Assembly: GCA_003152075.1 (NCBI GenBank)
Contig: PLZG01000086.1
Location: 601-64,600, forward strand
DNA length: 64,000 nucleotides
From: a candidate division FCPU426 bacterium
GTDB taxonomy: Bacteria > Oederibacteriota > Muellerivitia > Muellerivitales > Muellerivitaceae
Direction: 5' to 3'
Of this stretch, positions 56,873-64,000 are shown one piece after another. The position numbers were made by a program, and so were the translations under genes. Under the pieces are notes generated by a model. It saw nothing but the letters and a program-made list of their open reading frames with translations. It was not told where the DNA came from and ran no database searches. The stretch's first letter is position 1, and the number at the start of each line of letters is the position of its first letter.

Positions 56873-58627
56873 ATGCTCAAAAAACCGTTCCCTTTAAAGC
56901 TTTTTCCCCATTTTTTTATTTTTATCACCCTTCTTTTAATACAAATTACTGCTTATTCCGATAGTGTCAGCACGACTGGGGTTCAATTTTTAAAAATTCC
57001 CGCCGGAGTCCGGGGAGCCGGAATGGGTGGGATGTTTGCCGCTGTGGCAGATGATGTCAGTACCACCTATTGGAATACCGCTGGTTTGGCCCAAATTGAG
57101 AACATTGAGATCAACCTCTTACACGTTTCTTATTTTGGGGCCACGAACTATGAGTTTGGGGGTTTTGCCCTCCCTCTCCAGCCGGGAAGCACATTGGGAC
57201 TAAGCGGATCCTTTGATTTTATTCCATCCTTCAATTCGACAAATAACCCTTTGGCTCCGCTTGGAAGTGCCAACGACATTGCCATTGCTTTGGGTTACGG
57301 GCAAAAATTTGGGGATAATTTCGCTTTAGGTGTTGGGGGAAAATATATCTCTAGCAATTTGGTTAGCTCCGGGGCTTCTGGCGGGGCAGTTGATGCCGGC
57401 CTTTTACTTTTCACGACTCACAAGGAATTAACGTTGGGCCTATCGGTTCAAAATGTTGGGCAAGTTTCAAATTTTGGCAACTACTCCTCCCAAGAAAAAT
57501 TGCCCTTGGTTTATCGGGGTGGACTTGTTTACCGTTTTGAACCCCAAAAACCAACTCATTTTCTTTTGGGTGTGGATGTTGAAAAACCAATTGACAGCGA
57601 CCTAATCTTTCATACTGGTGGTGAGTTTTGGCTTGGTATCGAAAGCCTTTCCGTTGCTTTTCGGGCGGGATATAGTTTTGACCCCCTGAACCAGGATTTG
57701 GGTGGCACGAGCGGGGCTTCAGTGGGTGCGGGAGTTCGGTTTACTGGGTTCGAGTTAAATTACGCTTTAGTTCCCTTTGGGGTTTTAGGGGATACCCAGC
57801 GATTCTCTATTACCTATCGGTTTGGTACGGAAGGAAATGCTTCCACAGCCCAAAATCAAAAGGAAAAAGTGGTGGCTGTTGATATTAAGCCTCAAATTTC
57901 CGATTACCAAACAGGAACAGTAAAACAAGCCACTTTTGAGTTAAAGCCGCAAGCGCGAACGGATATTAAAAACTGGACCTTGGAAATCACGGGATCCAAA
58001 GGCGAGATTATCCGAACTTATGCCGGTAAAGGTGTCCCGCCCAAGCAAATCGCTTGGGATGGTAAGGACAGCACGGGTAACGTGGTCACGGGCGGTATAT
58101 TCGCCAATTACAATTTCCGGACTGTTGATACTCGTGGGCAACAAGTAGTGGCAACGGATCCCATTTTCAAGGTCGCTCAAGCTAATTCCCGGGAAGCCGC
58201 TATGGTGGCATCAGCCTCAATCTCGCCGATGGAAGCCGCTCCGCCCTCCTTGCCTGAAAATTTCCAACCCCTTGGTATGTCGGGCGTGGTCAAAGTCCCA
58301 AGCATCTCTTTTGGAGAAAAAAGCTCCCGTGTGAATCCCGCCTTCTTGAATTACCTGGATCAAGTTGCCCATCAAATCCGGAAGTATCCTAATTCTCGGG
58401 TGTATATCGAAGGGCACGCTTTTGATGAGGGAACACCACGGGAAGCGGTCAACATTTCCCAAAATCGTTCGGACGCCGTTTTGAGGTATTTGGTGGAAAA
58501 GGGAAAAGTTTCACCGGATAATCTTTATTCACGCGGTCATGGTGATACAGCCCCCTTGGACATGAGCGATACGGAAGAAGCTCGATCGAAGAATCGCCGG
58601 GTTGACATTATTATTTTGACGAAATAA
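56873..58627 (+). CDS. PorV/PorQ (UPF0164)-type barrel fused to FlgD-Ig-like and OmpA-like domains
   Basis: GVQFLKIPAGVRGAGMGGMFAAVADDVSTTYWNTAGLAQ; WTLEITGSKGEIIRTYAGKGVPPKQIAWDGKDSTGNVVTGG; IEGHAFDEGTPREAVNISQNRSDAVLRYLVEKG...RGHGDTAP...KNRRVDIIIL. Confidence 0.88.
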   Translation: MLKKPFPLKLFPHFFIFITLLLIQITAYSDSVSTTGVQFLKIPAGVRGAGMGGMFAAVADDVSTTYWNTAGLAQIENIEINLLHVSYFGATNYEFGGFALPLQPGSTLGLSGSFDFIPSFNSTNNPLAPLGSANDIAIALGYGQKFGDNFALGVGGKYISSNLVSSGASGGAVDAGLLLFTTHKELTLGLSVQNVGQVSNFGNYSSQEKLPLVYRGGLVYRFEPQKPTHFLLGVDVEKPIDSDLIFHTGGEFWLGIESLSVAFRAGYSFDPLNQDLGGTSGASVGAGVRFTGFELNYALVPFGVLGDTQRFSITYRFGTEGNASTAQNQKEKVVAVDIKPQISDYQTGTVKQATFELKPQARTDIKNWTLEITGSKGEIIRTYAGKGVPPKQIAWDGKDSTGNVVTGGIFANYNFRTVDTRGQQVVATDPIFKVAQANSREAAMVASASISPMEAAPPSLPENFQPLGMSGVVKVPSISFGEKSSRVNPAFLNYLDQVAHQIRKYPNSRVYIEGHAFDEGTPREAVNISQNRSDAVLRYLVEKGKVSPDNLYSRGHGDTAPLDMSDTEEARSKNRRVDIIILTK

Positions 58628-58649: not shown

Positions 58650-59882
58650 TTGACAAAAGCAATCAAAATCCCATTTCTTGTATTGTCCTTGCTTTATTTG
58701 GGGATTTTAAGCGGTTGTCAGTATTTCACAGATTCCTATGATGCCGCGGCCACACTCGACCAAAACGGGAAATATGCCCAAGCCGTTGAGGCTTATCTAA
58801 AGTATTTGAAGAGCCATCCGGGTTCTTTGCTTGCGGCTAAAATTTATTACCGCATCGGAAAAAATTATGAATCCCAATCTGATTACAACAATGCTTTGAA
58901 TTGGTATCAAAAAGTCATTAGTGAATTTCCAAAAACCGATGAGGAAATCCATTCACTTTTAGACCTCGCGTCCCTGTATCAAAATAAACTTAAAAATCCT
59001 TCGAAAGCTTTGGATTACAATCAACAAGCTTTCAACCGTTATATGGACAATATTCAAATAAAAAGCGCCATTCAATCACTTATTGACGCCCAATATCAAA
59101 CAGCCAACGCTCAGTTTACGGATAAGAATTACAAAAGTGTGTCGGGGACCATTGATGGTATTTATAAAACTTTTCCGGTTGTTTTTATTTCGCCTGATAC
59201 TCGGGCCAAAATTGATTCATTGGCTGATCGGTCAAGAAGGGCAGACGATATTGCGAAAGCAAGCGTTGATTTAATAGTCCTGAAAAGTGAGTTTTCATTT
59301 AACAAAAGCTTCGAAACCGATTTTCCGGTTGAAGCTGATAGCAGTGATAAAATAATAGCTTCTCCAGATGGCAACTTTCTCGCCTCCAGAAGAAAGGGGC
59401 CCAATGGCGTTTTTTATCTTTACGTGGCAAAGGTTCCGGCGAAAGGGGATCAGGTCATATTCAAATTAGTTAAACAAACCTTTGGGGCGGATAAGCCGAC
59501 CTGGTCTCCGGATGGACAAGAACTGGTCTATTGGCGCACTTTGAGAGGGACTCGAAAGCTGGAAAAAACGAATATTAAAAACATGACCACCCAAACGCTT
59601 TTTTACACGAAGAGCAACAGGCTTGGAGTTCATCCAGCCTACCATCCATCGGGAAACAAGATTGCTTATATTTATGAGGGACGCGTTTGTTTGATTGGTA
59701 CCGGTGAAACCCCTTATAAACAACTGTTGAAAACAAAACAAAAACTTGACTATACTGCCGACTTGGCTTGGTCGATAGATGGAACGATGATTCGATGCCG
59801 CCAGATGGATAAGCACAACAAATCGGTTGATGAATTGTTGGTTCTGGATACATCCGCTTCATTCAGTAACCCTTCGAATTAA
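58650..59882 (+). CDS. TPR plus WD40/TolB-like beta-propeller lipoprotein
   Basis: LGILSGCQYF lipobox; TPR-like repeats; SPDGNFLASRR, KPTWSPDGQELVYWR, HPAYHPSGNKIAYIYEGR propeller blades. Confidence 0.8.
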   Translation: MTKAIKIPFLVLSLLYLGILSGCQYFTDSYDAAATLDQNGKYAQAVEAYLKYLKSHPGSLLAAKIYYRIGKNYESQSDYNNALNWYQKVISEFPKTDEEIHSLLDLASLYQNKLKNPSKALDYNQQAFNRYMDNIQIKSAIQSLIDAQYQTANAQFTDKNYKSVSGTIDGIYKTFPVVFISPDTRAKIDSLADRSRRADDIAKASVDLIVLKSEFSFNKSFETDFPVEADSSDKIIASPDGNFLASRRKGPNGVFYLYVAKVPAKGDQVIFKLVKQTFGADKPTWSPDGQELVYWRTLRGTRKLEKTNIKNMTTQTLFYTKSNRLGVHPAYHPSGNKIAYIYEGRVCLIGTGETPYKQLLKTKQKLDYTADLAWSIDGTMIRCRQMDKHNKSVDELLVLDTSASFSNPSN

Positions 59883-59908: not shown

Positions 59909-61786
59909 ATGAACCGATTGAAACCGTGGGGAATTTGTCTGTTATTCATTTGGGGTATTTGCGGAGGCGTTTTTGCTCAAGACGCCCGCATGCAAGCATT
60001 AATGGAAGCCATTAAGGCGAATCCGAATGATTCCACGGCACATTTTAATTTAGGCGTCGCCTATTTCAATGAGCAAAAATATGACGGGGCAATACCGGAA
60101 TTTCAAAAATGCCTCCAAATTAATTCGAGTGATAAACAGGCTAAGGAAATGTTGGAAAGCAGTGAGGGTATTTCGGCTTATTATCAAAATAATTACTCCG
60201 CTGCCGCGGATCACTTGAAAAATGTGCTTAAAATCAACCCTCAAAATCCGAATGCCAACCTTTTGTTGGCTGACGCGTACGTCAAACTAAAACAATATCC
60301 CGACGCCGAAGAAGCCTTGAAGAATTATTCTTTGACCTCGCCTCAAGGGAAGGAAAAGGCGAGTGAGGTTTTGTCGAAAATTTACATGAACCAAAAACGA
60401 TACGGTGAGGCCGTTACAGAGTTAAAAAACGTTATAGCCGCCGATCCTAAAAATTTCGCGGCGCTTCATAACCTTGGCGGTTCCTATTATTCAATGAAGA
60501 ATTATAAAGACGCTGCTTATTATTGGGAAAGCGCGGTTAAGATTCAAAAAGACGCTCAAACTTATCAGCTCCTCGGGACTTCTTATTACAATTTGGGAGA
60601 CTCTAAAAACGCTATTGATAATTATAATAAGTCGATTGCGGTTGAGTCCGCCAAAGATCCCAAGGAACAAGATGGCGAGGCGTTGGGAGCAACTTATTAC
60701 AATCTCGCTGTCGCTTACAATGACAGCGGCTCTTACGACCAAGCCGCGGAAGCTTTCGGGCAGGCATTTAAAATCAATCCTAAAGATTCCAACGCGGCCG
60801 TGGGTCGCGCGGGAGCTATCGAGACAGCCACAAGCTCTCACATGGAAAAAGCCAGTAAATATCTATTGGATAGTCGATACAGTGATGTCATTTCGGAATG
60901 CCAGATGGTTTTGAAATACCAGCCCGATAGTAAACAGGCTTTGGACTATATAACCGATGCCAAAAATAAATTGAGTGTTGAAGTGGATAGGCATTATGCC
61001 GCTGGTAAGGCTTTTGCCCAAAAAGGAAAATCCCTTCAAGCTATTGGCGAGTGGAACTTGGCCTTGCAGATGGATCCGAACAACTTAAAAATCCAAAAAG
61101 CGATAAAAAGCGTAAATGTTAGAAGAAATGATCGAGTCAGGGCTTTGATTGCCGAAGGGGACGAGTACTTCAAAGCTAAGGACTATTCGGATGCCTTGAT
61201 GAGTTACTTAAAAGCCAAGGATGTTGACCCCAAAAGTTCAGCTGTAAAGGCATGCTTGAAAAAAATAAATTCGAGACAAAAAGCCGAAATCGACACTGTT
61301 TATGGCAAAGCTCTTAAATTAGGCGCGAATGGAGATTTGAAAGGCGCCCAAAAATATTTGTTAATGGCCAAACAAATTGATCCAAACAACTCAAAAGTTA
61401 CCAGCGCGTTATTTAAGGTTCAGAAGGACATTACGGTTAAAATCAAGGAGTTGGACGCGGACGGGGTCTCTCTATTTGAAGGCGGAAACAAGGACAAGGC
61501 CAAAACTAAATTCGACGTGGTTTTAAAGCTTAAGCCAAACGATGAGACCGCCAATGAGTACGTCCAAAAAATGACGGGGCAACAATCCCATGAAAAAGCC
61601 GATGCCGAACAGGTCAAGACTCTTTATTACGATGGGGTTAACCTTTACATTAACGGAAAAATTTCCGAGGCGATTGAAAAATGGAAAGAGTGCAAGAAAC
61701 TGGACCCAGGTAATATTAATGCGCAGAAAAACATCGATAAAGCGATGGTTAAGCTCGATTCTATTGCGAAGCTCAGCCATAATTAA
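59909..61786 (+). CDS. Exported TPR-repeat protein
   Basis: Signal peptide to GGVFAQ; many TPR units (AHFNLGVAYFNEQKYDGAIPEFQKCLQIN etc.). Confidence 0.88.
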   Translation: MNRLKPWGICLLFIWGICGGVFAQDARMQALMEAIKANPNDSTAHFNLGVAYFNEQKYDGAIPEFQKCLQINSSDKQAKEMLESSEGISAYYQNNYSAAADHLKNVLKINPQNPNANLLLADAYVKLKQYPDAEEALKNYSLTSPQGKEKASEVLSKIYMNQKRYGEAVTELKNVIAADPKNFAALHNLGGSYYSMKNYKDAAYYWESAVKIQKDAQTYQLLGTSYYNLGDSKNAIDNYNKSIAVESAKDPKEQDGEALGATYYNLAVAYNDSGSYDQAAEAFGQAFKINPKDSNAAVGRAGAIETATSSHMEKASKYLLDSRYSDVISECQMVLKYQPDSKQALDYITDAKNKLSVEVDRHYAAGKAFAQKGKSLQAIGEWNLALQMDPNNLKIQKAIKSVNVRRNDRVRALIAEGDEYFKAKDYSDALMSYLKAKDVDPKSSAVKACLKKINSRQKAEIDTVYGKALKLGANGDLKGAQKYLLMAKQIDPNNSKVTSALFKVQKDITVKIKELDADGVSLFEGGNKDKAKTKFDVVLKLKPNDETANEYVQKMTGQQSHEKADAEQVKTLYYDGVNLYINGKISEAIEKWKECKKLDPGNINAQKNIDKAMVKLDSIAKLSHN

Positions 61787-61847
61787 CGTCGTCAATCCTA
61801 CTGTATCGAATTGCCTTTCGATGTTGCCGTCCAGCTGGCCAGAAAAC

Positions 61848-63490
<1,643 letters not shown>

Positions 63491-63542: not shown

Positions 63543-64000
63543 ATGACAAAACCTTTATTTATTATATTTATCTTACTATTGGCACCTAACTTGGCTTGGT
63601 CATCGGGTCCAGGAACCAGCGGCGCCGATATTTTAAAAGTTCCCATTGGGGTACGTCCTGCGGCCTTGGGTGGAACTTATTCCGCTTTCGGGGATGATGT
63701 TTATGTAATTGGATTCAACCCCGCAGGTCTTGCCAGGATATCAAAATATAGCCTGGGAATAGACCATGTCCAGGGCTTCGCGGATGTTCAGGTTGAGTCT
63801 CTGAGTGTAGCGGTTCCTACCCAGAGTTACGGTAACTTCGGCGGTCAGGTTATTTTTCGGCATTTACCAAATATTCAAAACACTTTGGCTTCGGATCCGC
63901 CCATTACTGCTGATGATTTAGTAATAACCGTGGCGGACGCCCAACAATTCGGTAAGTTTGCAATCGGAGGATCTTTTAAAACCATCATTTCAAATCTGGG
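63543..64000 (+). CDS. Second PorV/PorQ (UPF0164)-family protein, 3' truncated by window end
   Basis: MTKPLFIIFILLLAPNLAWSSGPGTSGADILKVPIGVRPAALGGTYSAFGDDVYVIGFNPAGLARISKYSLGIDHVQGFADVQ; absent from ORF track because no stop within window. Confidence 0.88.
   Translation, partial: MTKPLFIIFILLLAPNLAWSSGPGTSGADILKVPIGVRPAALGGTYSAFGDDVYVIGFNPAGLARISKYSLGIDHVQGFADVQVESLSVAVPTQSYGNFGGQVIFRHLPNIQNTLASDPPITADDLVITVADAQQFGKFAIGGSFKTIISNL

Follow-up and report, generated by a model that had tools for sequence, protein, structure and literature searches.

The fusion gene and its neighbours

The window analysed here is a stretch of 64,000 nucleotides from a bacterium of candidate division FCPU426, which has the rank of phylum in the NCBI taxonomy and was joined to Goldbacteria in a 2019 paper (PMC7031533). 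The part of interest holds a gene encoding a PorV-family barrel, an Ig-like domain and an OmpA_C domain in a single frame, followed closely by two genes on the same strand:

56873..58627, + strand: PorV-Ig-OmpA fusion gene (PVO), 584 aa, ATG start, defined by profile scores, AlphaFold2 and structure matches
56873..56965, + strand: putative signal peptide region, about residues 1-31, proposed from an N-terminus hydrophobic by eye
56972..57823, + strand: PorV-family barrel, residues 34-317 (NF033709, AlphaFold2, best PDB match)
57878..58162, + strand: FlgD-like Ig domain, residues 336-430 (PF13860 in homologues, fold)
58310..58597, + strand: OmpA_C domain, residues 480-575 (PF00691, Foldseek)
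58421..58468, + strand: ligand pocket positions F517, A525 and R532, placed by a motif table and an alignment, with the PorE residues as reference
58650..59882, + strand: partner lipoprotein of the conserved pair, 410 aa, lipobox LSGC, TPRs and a TolB/PD40-like propeller region, 22 nt after the fusion gene
59909..61786, + strand: exported TPR protein, 625 aa, last of the trio, 26 nt downstream of the lipoprotein gene

Domain architecture and fold

Profiles, AlphaFold2 and Foldseek agree that a PorV-type barrel, an Ig domain and an OmpA_C domain stand in this order in one polypeptide, as the first-pass annotation had read it. The NCBIfam PorV/PorQ model NF033709 matches residues 34-317 over its full length (model positions 1-326) with 156.9 bits for a cut-off of 90, and the Pfam PorV and UPF0164 models both score above their cut-offs. 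The equivalog model NF033710, representing the PorV orthologue of type IX secretion systems (T9SS), gave 66.3 bits for the fusion, far under its cut-off of 250. OmpA_C (PF00691) reaches 62 bits for a cut-off of 27.2. The fold of the Ig domain and its relatives (L003, L018 and L021 score above the Pfam cut-off) suggest that it is FlgD-like; the window protein itself has 23 bits with FlgD_ig (PF13860), under the cut-off of 27.

The AlphaFold2 model comprises 14 barrel strands (79-316), a seven-stranded sandwich (336-430) and an OmpA fold (471-583); its mean pLDDT of 76.4 and pTM of 0.50 make the single domain folds usable and their relative placement not. The top PDB match of the model in Foldseek is PorV of Flavobacterium johnsoniae (8gl6_F, E 1.3e-13), 6h3i_F is also matched, and the C-terminus matches the OprF, OmpA and Pal domains. 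Judged from the model, the barrel is a member of the PorV/FadL fold. An unrelated barrel is ruled out by the NF033709 score and by PorV being the best structural match. Six other genomes of the same family encode full-length orthologues with 67-76% identity, so the frame is neither a chance ORF nor the product of a chimeric contig; one further orthologue, in another family, shows 38% identity. The Ig domain was also considered as a sorting signal and rejected: TIGR04183, the T9SS sorting-domain model, has no match at the fusion locus, and the Ig domain precedes the OmpA domain.

Conservation of the gene trio

The PorV-Ig-OmpA gene opens a conserved trio, in which the second gene encodes a lipoprotein that combines TPRs and a TolB-like propeller, and the third a large TPR protein. 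The phylum was sampled with 45 genomes of candidate division FCPU426, G000 designating the host genome of the window. Strong matches to the lipoprotein profile (E<1e-40) come from 22 genomes; in 22/22 the gene lies directly downstream of the best fusion match of the genome; these pairs span eight families of the phylum. The best PDB matches of the lipoprotein model are TolB structures, TolB-Pal complexes among them, for a propeller region that is short and modelled with moderate confidence only. An OmpA domain, a TolB-like propeller and YbgF-like TPRs are also found together in the Pal-TolB-CpoB (Tol-Pal) system, but the domains are distributed differently in the trio, where the curated TolB and YbgF models do not reach their cut-offs.

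In seven genomes (G014, G019, G025, G031, G034, G037 and G041), the trio is located about 10 kb from sprA. After the trio come, in this order, genes for a LacI-type regulator, an O-antigen ligase-like protein and a GT9 glycosyltransferase, before sprA is reached; family assignments were made on G014, and the gene order was read across to the other six. The trio is not adjacent to sprA in the host's own family, in which it is flanked by surA and maf on one side and by an outer-membrane protein gene, a further PorV gene, rplU and obg on the other. In the region 61811-61990 of the window, a tRNA-Gly (ccc) at 61848-61922 overlaps the ORF listed from 61811, and the start of the outer-membrane protein must therefore be further downstream than 61811. 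The second PorV-family gene (63543-64000; 307 aa, barrel only) runs past the end of the window and its place is conserved in the host family. The f9/f3 relatives have no lipoprotein gene at the fusion locus, where the neighbour can be an LVIVD propeller protein. In the f9 genome G026 (C80, L191:11803-13284), such an LVIVD-repeat protein adjoins the fusion, and the large TPR protein has a homologue about 4.5 kb away.

Distribution and origins of the fusion

By our own count from the searches, 27 of the 45 genomes encode barrel and OmpA domain in a single frame. Two overlapping frames take its place in G031 and G037, with an ambiguous base nearby in at least one of these genomes. PorV-OmpA fusions recur in MAGs of WOR-3, Coatesbacteria and Firestonebacteria. 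A unique architecture is thus ruled out by its presence across the phylum and in other groups. The novelty suggested by the first-pass annotation stands as far as description is concerned, our literature searches, which also covered PorV in Elusimicrobia and in candidate divisions, having returned no paper on a PorV-Ig-OmpA protein, but the case is not an isolated one: the architecture is widespread in FCPU426 and undescribed in the literature searched.

The statement that PorV-type proteins normally end after the barrel is often untrue in this phylum. PorV-family matches are present in 45/45 genomes, with 7 to 43 per genome and about 24 genes in the host genome, and the frames span about 300 to 790 aa, with tails that are fn3-like or consist of TPR, Ig or OmpA domains. 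The host genome encodes other mosaics, a PorV-FlgD_ig-OmpA-TPR protein (L003:1405-3669) and a PorV-OmpA protein lacking the Ig domain (L008:1093-2550), as well as a protein of another kind that has FlgD_ig and TPR (L007:838-2280). On a tree built from 120 barrels, the fusions linked to the trio, referred to below as the trio clade, group together (SH-aLRT 94), with four f9/f3 fusions and a single barrel lacking OmpA nested among them. Up to 11 changes of the OmpA label are needed on this tree, although the starred branches force far fewer, so that several origins of the PorV-OmpA fusions are likely.

Type IX secretion components in the host genome

The T9SS is called specific to Bacteroidota in reviews (e.g. 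PMC7463736), and BLAST hints of its presence beyond Bacteroidota have been reported (PMC5837995). The host genome encodes a SprA/Sov homologue of 1988 aa (G000 C39, L147:5310-11273) with 203.3 bits, just above the cut-off of 200; the protein encoded after it, of 1557 aa, has a FlgD_ig-like domain at its end. SprA matches were obtained in 40/45 genomes of the phylum, and in 11/12 of the genomes to which loci of other groups had led, above the cut-off in five of these, including three WOR-3 MAGs. Such matches also occur in WOR-3, Elusimicrobia, Coatesbacteria and Aerophobetes MAGs. The host genome has 54 matches to TIGR04183, the model of C-terminal sorting domains (CTDs), about half of them above the cut-off.

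Of the 24 PorV genes in the host, six begin 150-260 nt downstream of a CTD gene on the same strand (G000 C75, C3, C69, C54, C89 and C111; L180-L184 and L179), where a uniform model taking no account of operons predicts 0.09. Because of this excess, the PorV-family proteins probably serve secretion in the host. The adjacency suggests cargo-shuttle pairs, resembling the substrate-shuttle gene pairs of Type B CTDs (PMC12618676). The fusion gene has no CTD gene as neighbour in the host genome, which rules it out as a cargo-specific shuttle and is as expected if it is a general component. No genome among the 45 scored above the cut-off of the PorE family model NF052230. GldM gave no match either, but this was dropped as evidence since the controls were likewise without match.

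Putative peptidoglycan-binding pocket

PorE holds the stem peptide by the side chains of Asp576, Asn584 and Arg591 (PMC7192894). The window protein has F517, A525 and R532 at these places, the Arg being the only one of the three to be kept. The earlier proposal of a barrel and a cell-wall anchor in one molecule thus stands for the barrel, while the anchor is not secured. Among the 22 OmpA domains of the trio clade, the Asp place is occupied by Ser in 14, Tyr in 3, Phe in 2 and Ala in 1, and by Asp with a one-residue insertion in 2, two rows misplaced in the motif table (L150 and L152) having been read by eye as Ser; the Arg is kept in 22/22. The Asn is replaced in all seven host-family members shown and in L016. 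All three residues are retained in four f9/f3 relatives, in most other PorV-OmpA fusions and in two stand-alone OmpA proteins of the host, and two OprF-like OmpA proteins of the host have Ser in place of Asp. Owing to the loss of Asp in the trio clade, and of Asn also in the host family, canonical peptidoglycan binding by the OmpA domain of the trio clade appears doubtful. The domain may grip the wall in another way or bind the partner propeller.

Proposed role and alternatives

Tentatively, and short of calling it probable, we read the fusion as a housekeeping component, tethered to the envelope, of a type IX-like secretion system in which the parts of PorE would be split over two proteins. 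PorE (PG1058) of Porphyromonas gingivalis, a proposed wall anchor of the T9SS (PMC7192894, PMC5053529), has its TPR, propeller, sandwich, OmpA_C and lipidated part in common with the products of the first two trio genes, but it is one four-domain lipoprotein, whereas the FCPU426 version is distributed over two genes with the OmpA domain on the barrel. In the WOR-3 fusions OmpA is preceded by a CarboxypepD_reg domain, and this tail is matched by the PorE model; PorE itself has a CarboxypepD_reg-type domain in the same place (PMC5053529), which supports the link. The PorV (LptO) of the Bacteroidota T9SS (PDB 6H3I, 8GL6) shares its barrel fold and family with the fusion, and SprA and CTD proteins are encoded in the host genome too. 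It stops after the barrel, however, whereas the fusion continues with the Ig and OmpA domains and differs from PorV in its equivalog score and its gene neighbour.

In the mechanism that we propose, the PorV-type barrel would sit in the outer membrane with its C-terminus towards the periplasm, a topology that we infer from the even number of barrel strands. The Ig domain would act as a spacer and the OmpA domain would extend towards the peptidoglycan. The next gene would supply the TPRs and the TolB-like propeller, on a lipoprotein of the outer membrane, and the third a long TPR protein. Fusion and lipoprotein would together hold the parts of PorE, with the OmpA end borne by a PorV-family barrel, and the trio could hold a barrel that acts as carrier or dock in a fixed place at the wall, close to the SprA translocon. 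A more specific version, in which the PorV-family barrel has taken over PorE's role at the wall and forms a fixed docking carrier near SprA while about twenty other PorV paralogues are cargo-specific shuttles, is unlikely. The wider reading draws on what is observed: the PorV fold and family, the lipoprotein gene next to the fusion in all 22 genomes, the nearness of the trio to sprA in seven, the SprA homologue and CTD genes of the host, and its CTD-PorV gene pairs. Membrane topology, contact with SprA, a part in export and wall binding are predictions. Several points go against a T9SS role: the location of the trio away from sprA in the host family, the lack of PorE matches above the cut-off, the low score with NF033710, the altered pocket and the short, moderately confident propeller region of the lipoprotein.

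To our knowledge, which outer-membrane and periplasmic parts of the T9SS work together is still open in model organisms. A gene fusion of a PorV-family barrel and a PorE-like tail hints directly at which of these parts cooperate. In FCPU426, SprA occurs across a candidate phylum along with numerous PorV genes, CTD proteins and the conserved trio.

Alternatively, the protein could be a general structural tether between outer membrane and wall, an analogue of OprF/OmpA that uses a PorV-type barrel and takes no part in secretion. OprF/OmpA porins follow the same plan of an outer-membrane barrel and a periplasmic OmpA_C domain; their barrel is 8-stranded, whereas the fusion has a 14-stranded PorV-type barrel and an additional Ig spacer. 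Multiple origins of the fusion would fit a generic benefit, and the trio of the host family is located among housekeeping genes. This role is nonetheless somewhat unlikely given the conserved pairing with a TPR/propeller lipoprotein, the linkage to sprA elsewhere, and the loss of the pocket residues in exactly the trio clade; moreover, the host already owns OprF-like and Pal-like OmpA proteins.

The same loss could indicate that the OmpA domain of the trio clade no longer binds peptidoglycan and docks on the TolB-like propeller of the lipoprotein, as Pal does on TolB, in a barrel-lipoprotein complex. The absence of the pocket Asp from 20/22 domains agrees with such docking, as do the intact pockets of the f9/f3 relatives, which have another neighbour, and the resemblance of the lipoprotein model to TolB-Pal complexes. 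We nevertheless regard it as quite unlikely: the invariant Arg and an acidic residue common two positions further on would allow another mode of wall binding, and the Ser of the two OprF-like proteins of the host shows the replacement of Asp outside the trio clade. The altered pocket makes a simple binding result informative in either direction.

A FadL-like uptake porin for hydrophobic compounds, fitted with a wall anchor, is very improbable, as the gene neighbourhood is not metabolic and PorV matches the barrel clearly better by fold and sequence. FadL, named in the first-pass annotation as the barrel that would contradict a PorV-type assignment, is not cleanly separated from it, FadL structures ranking after PorV in Foldseek with weaker scores.
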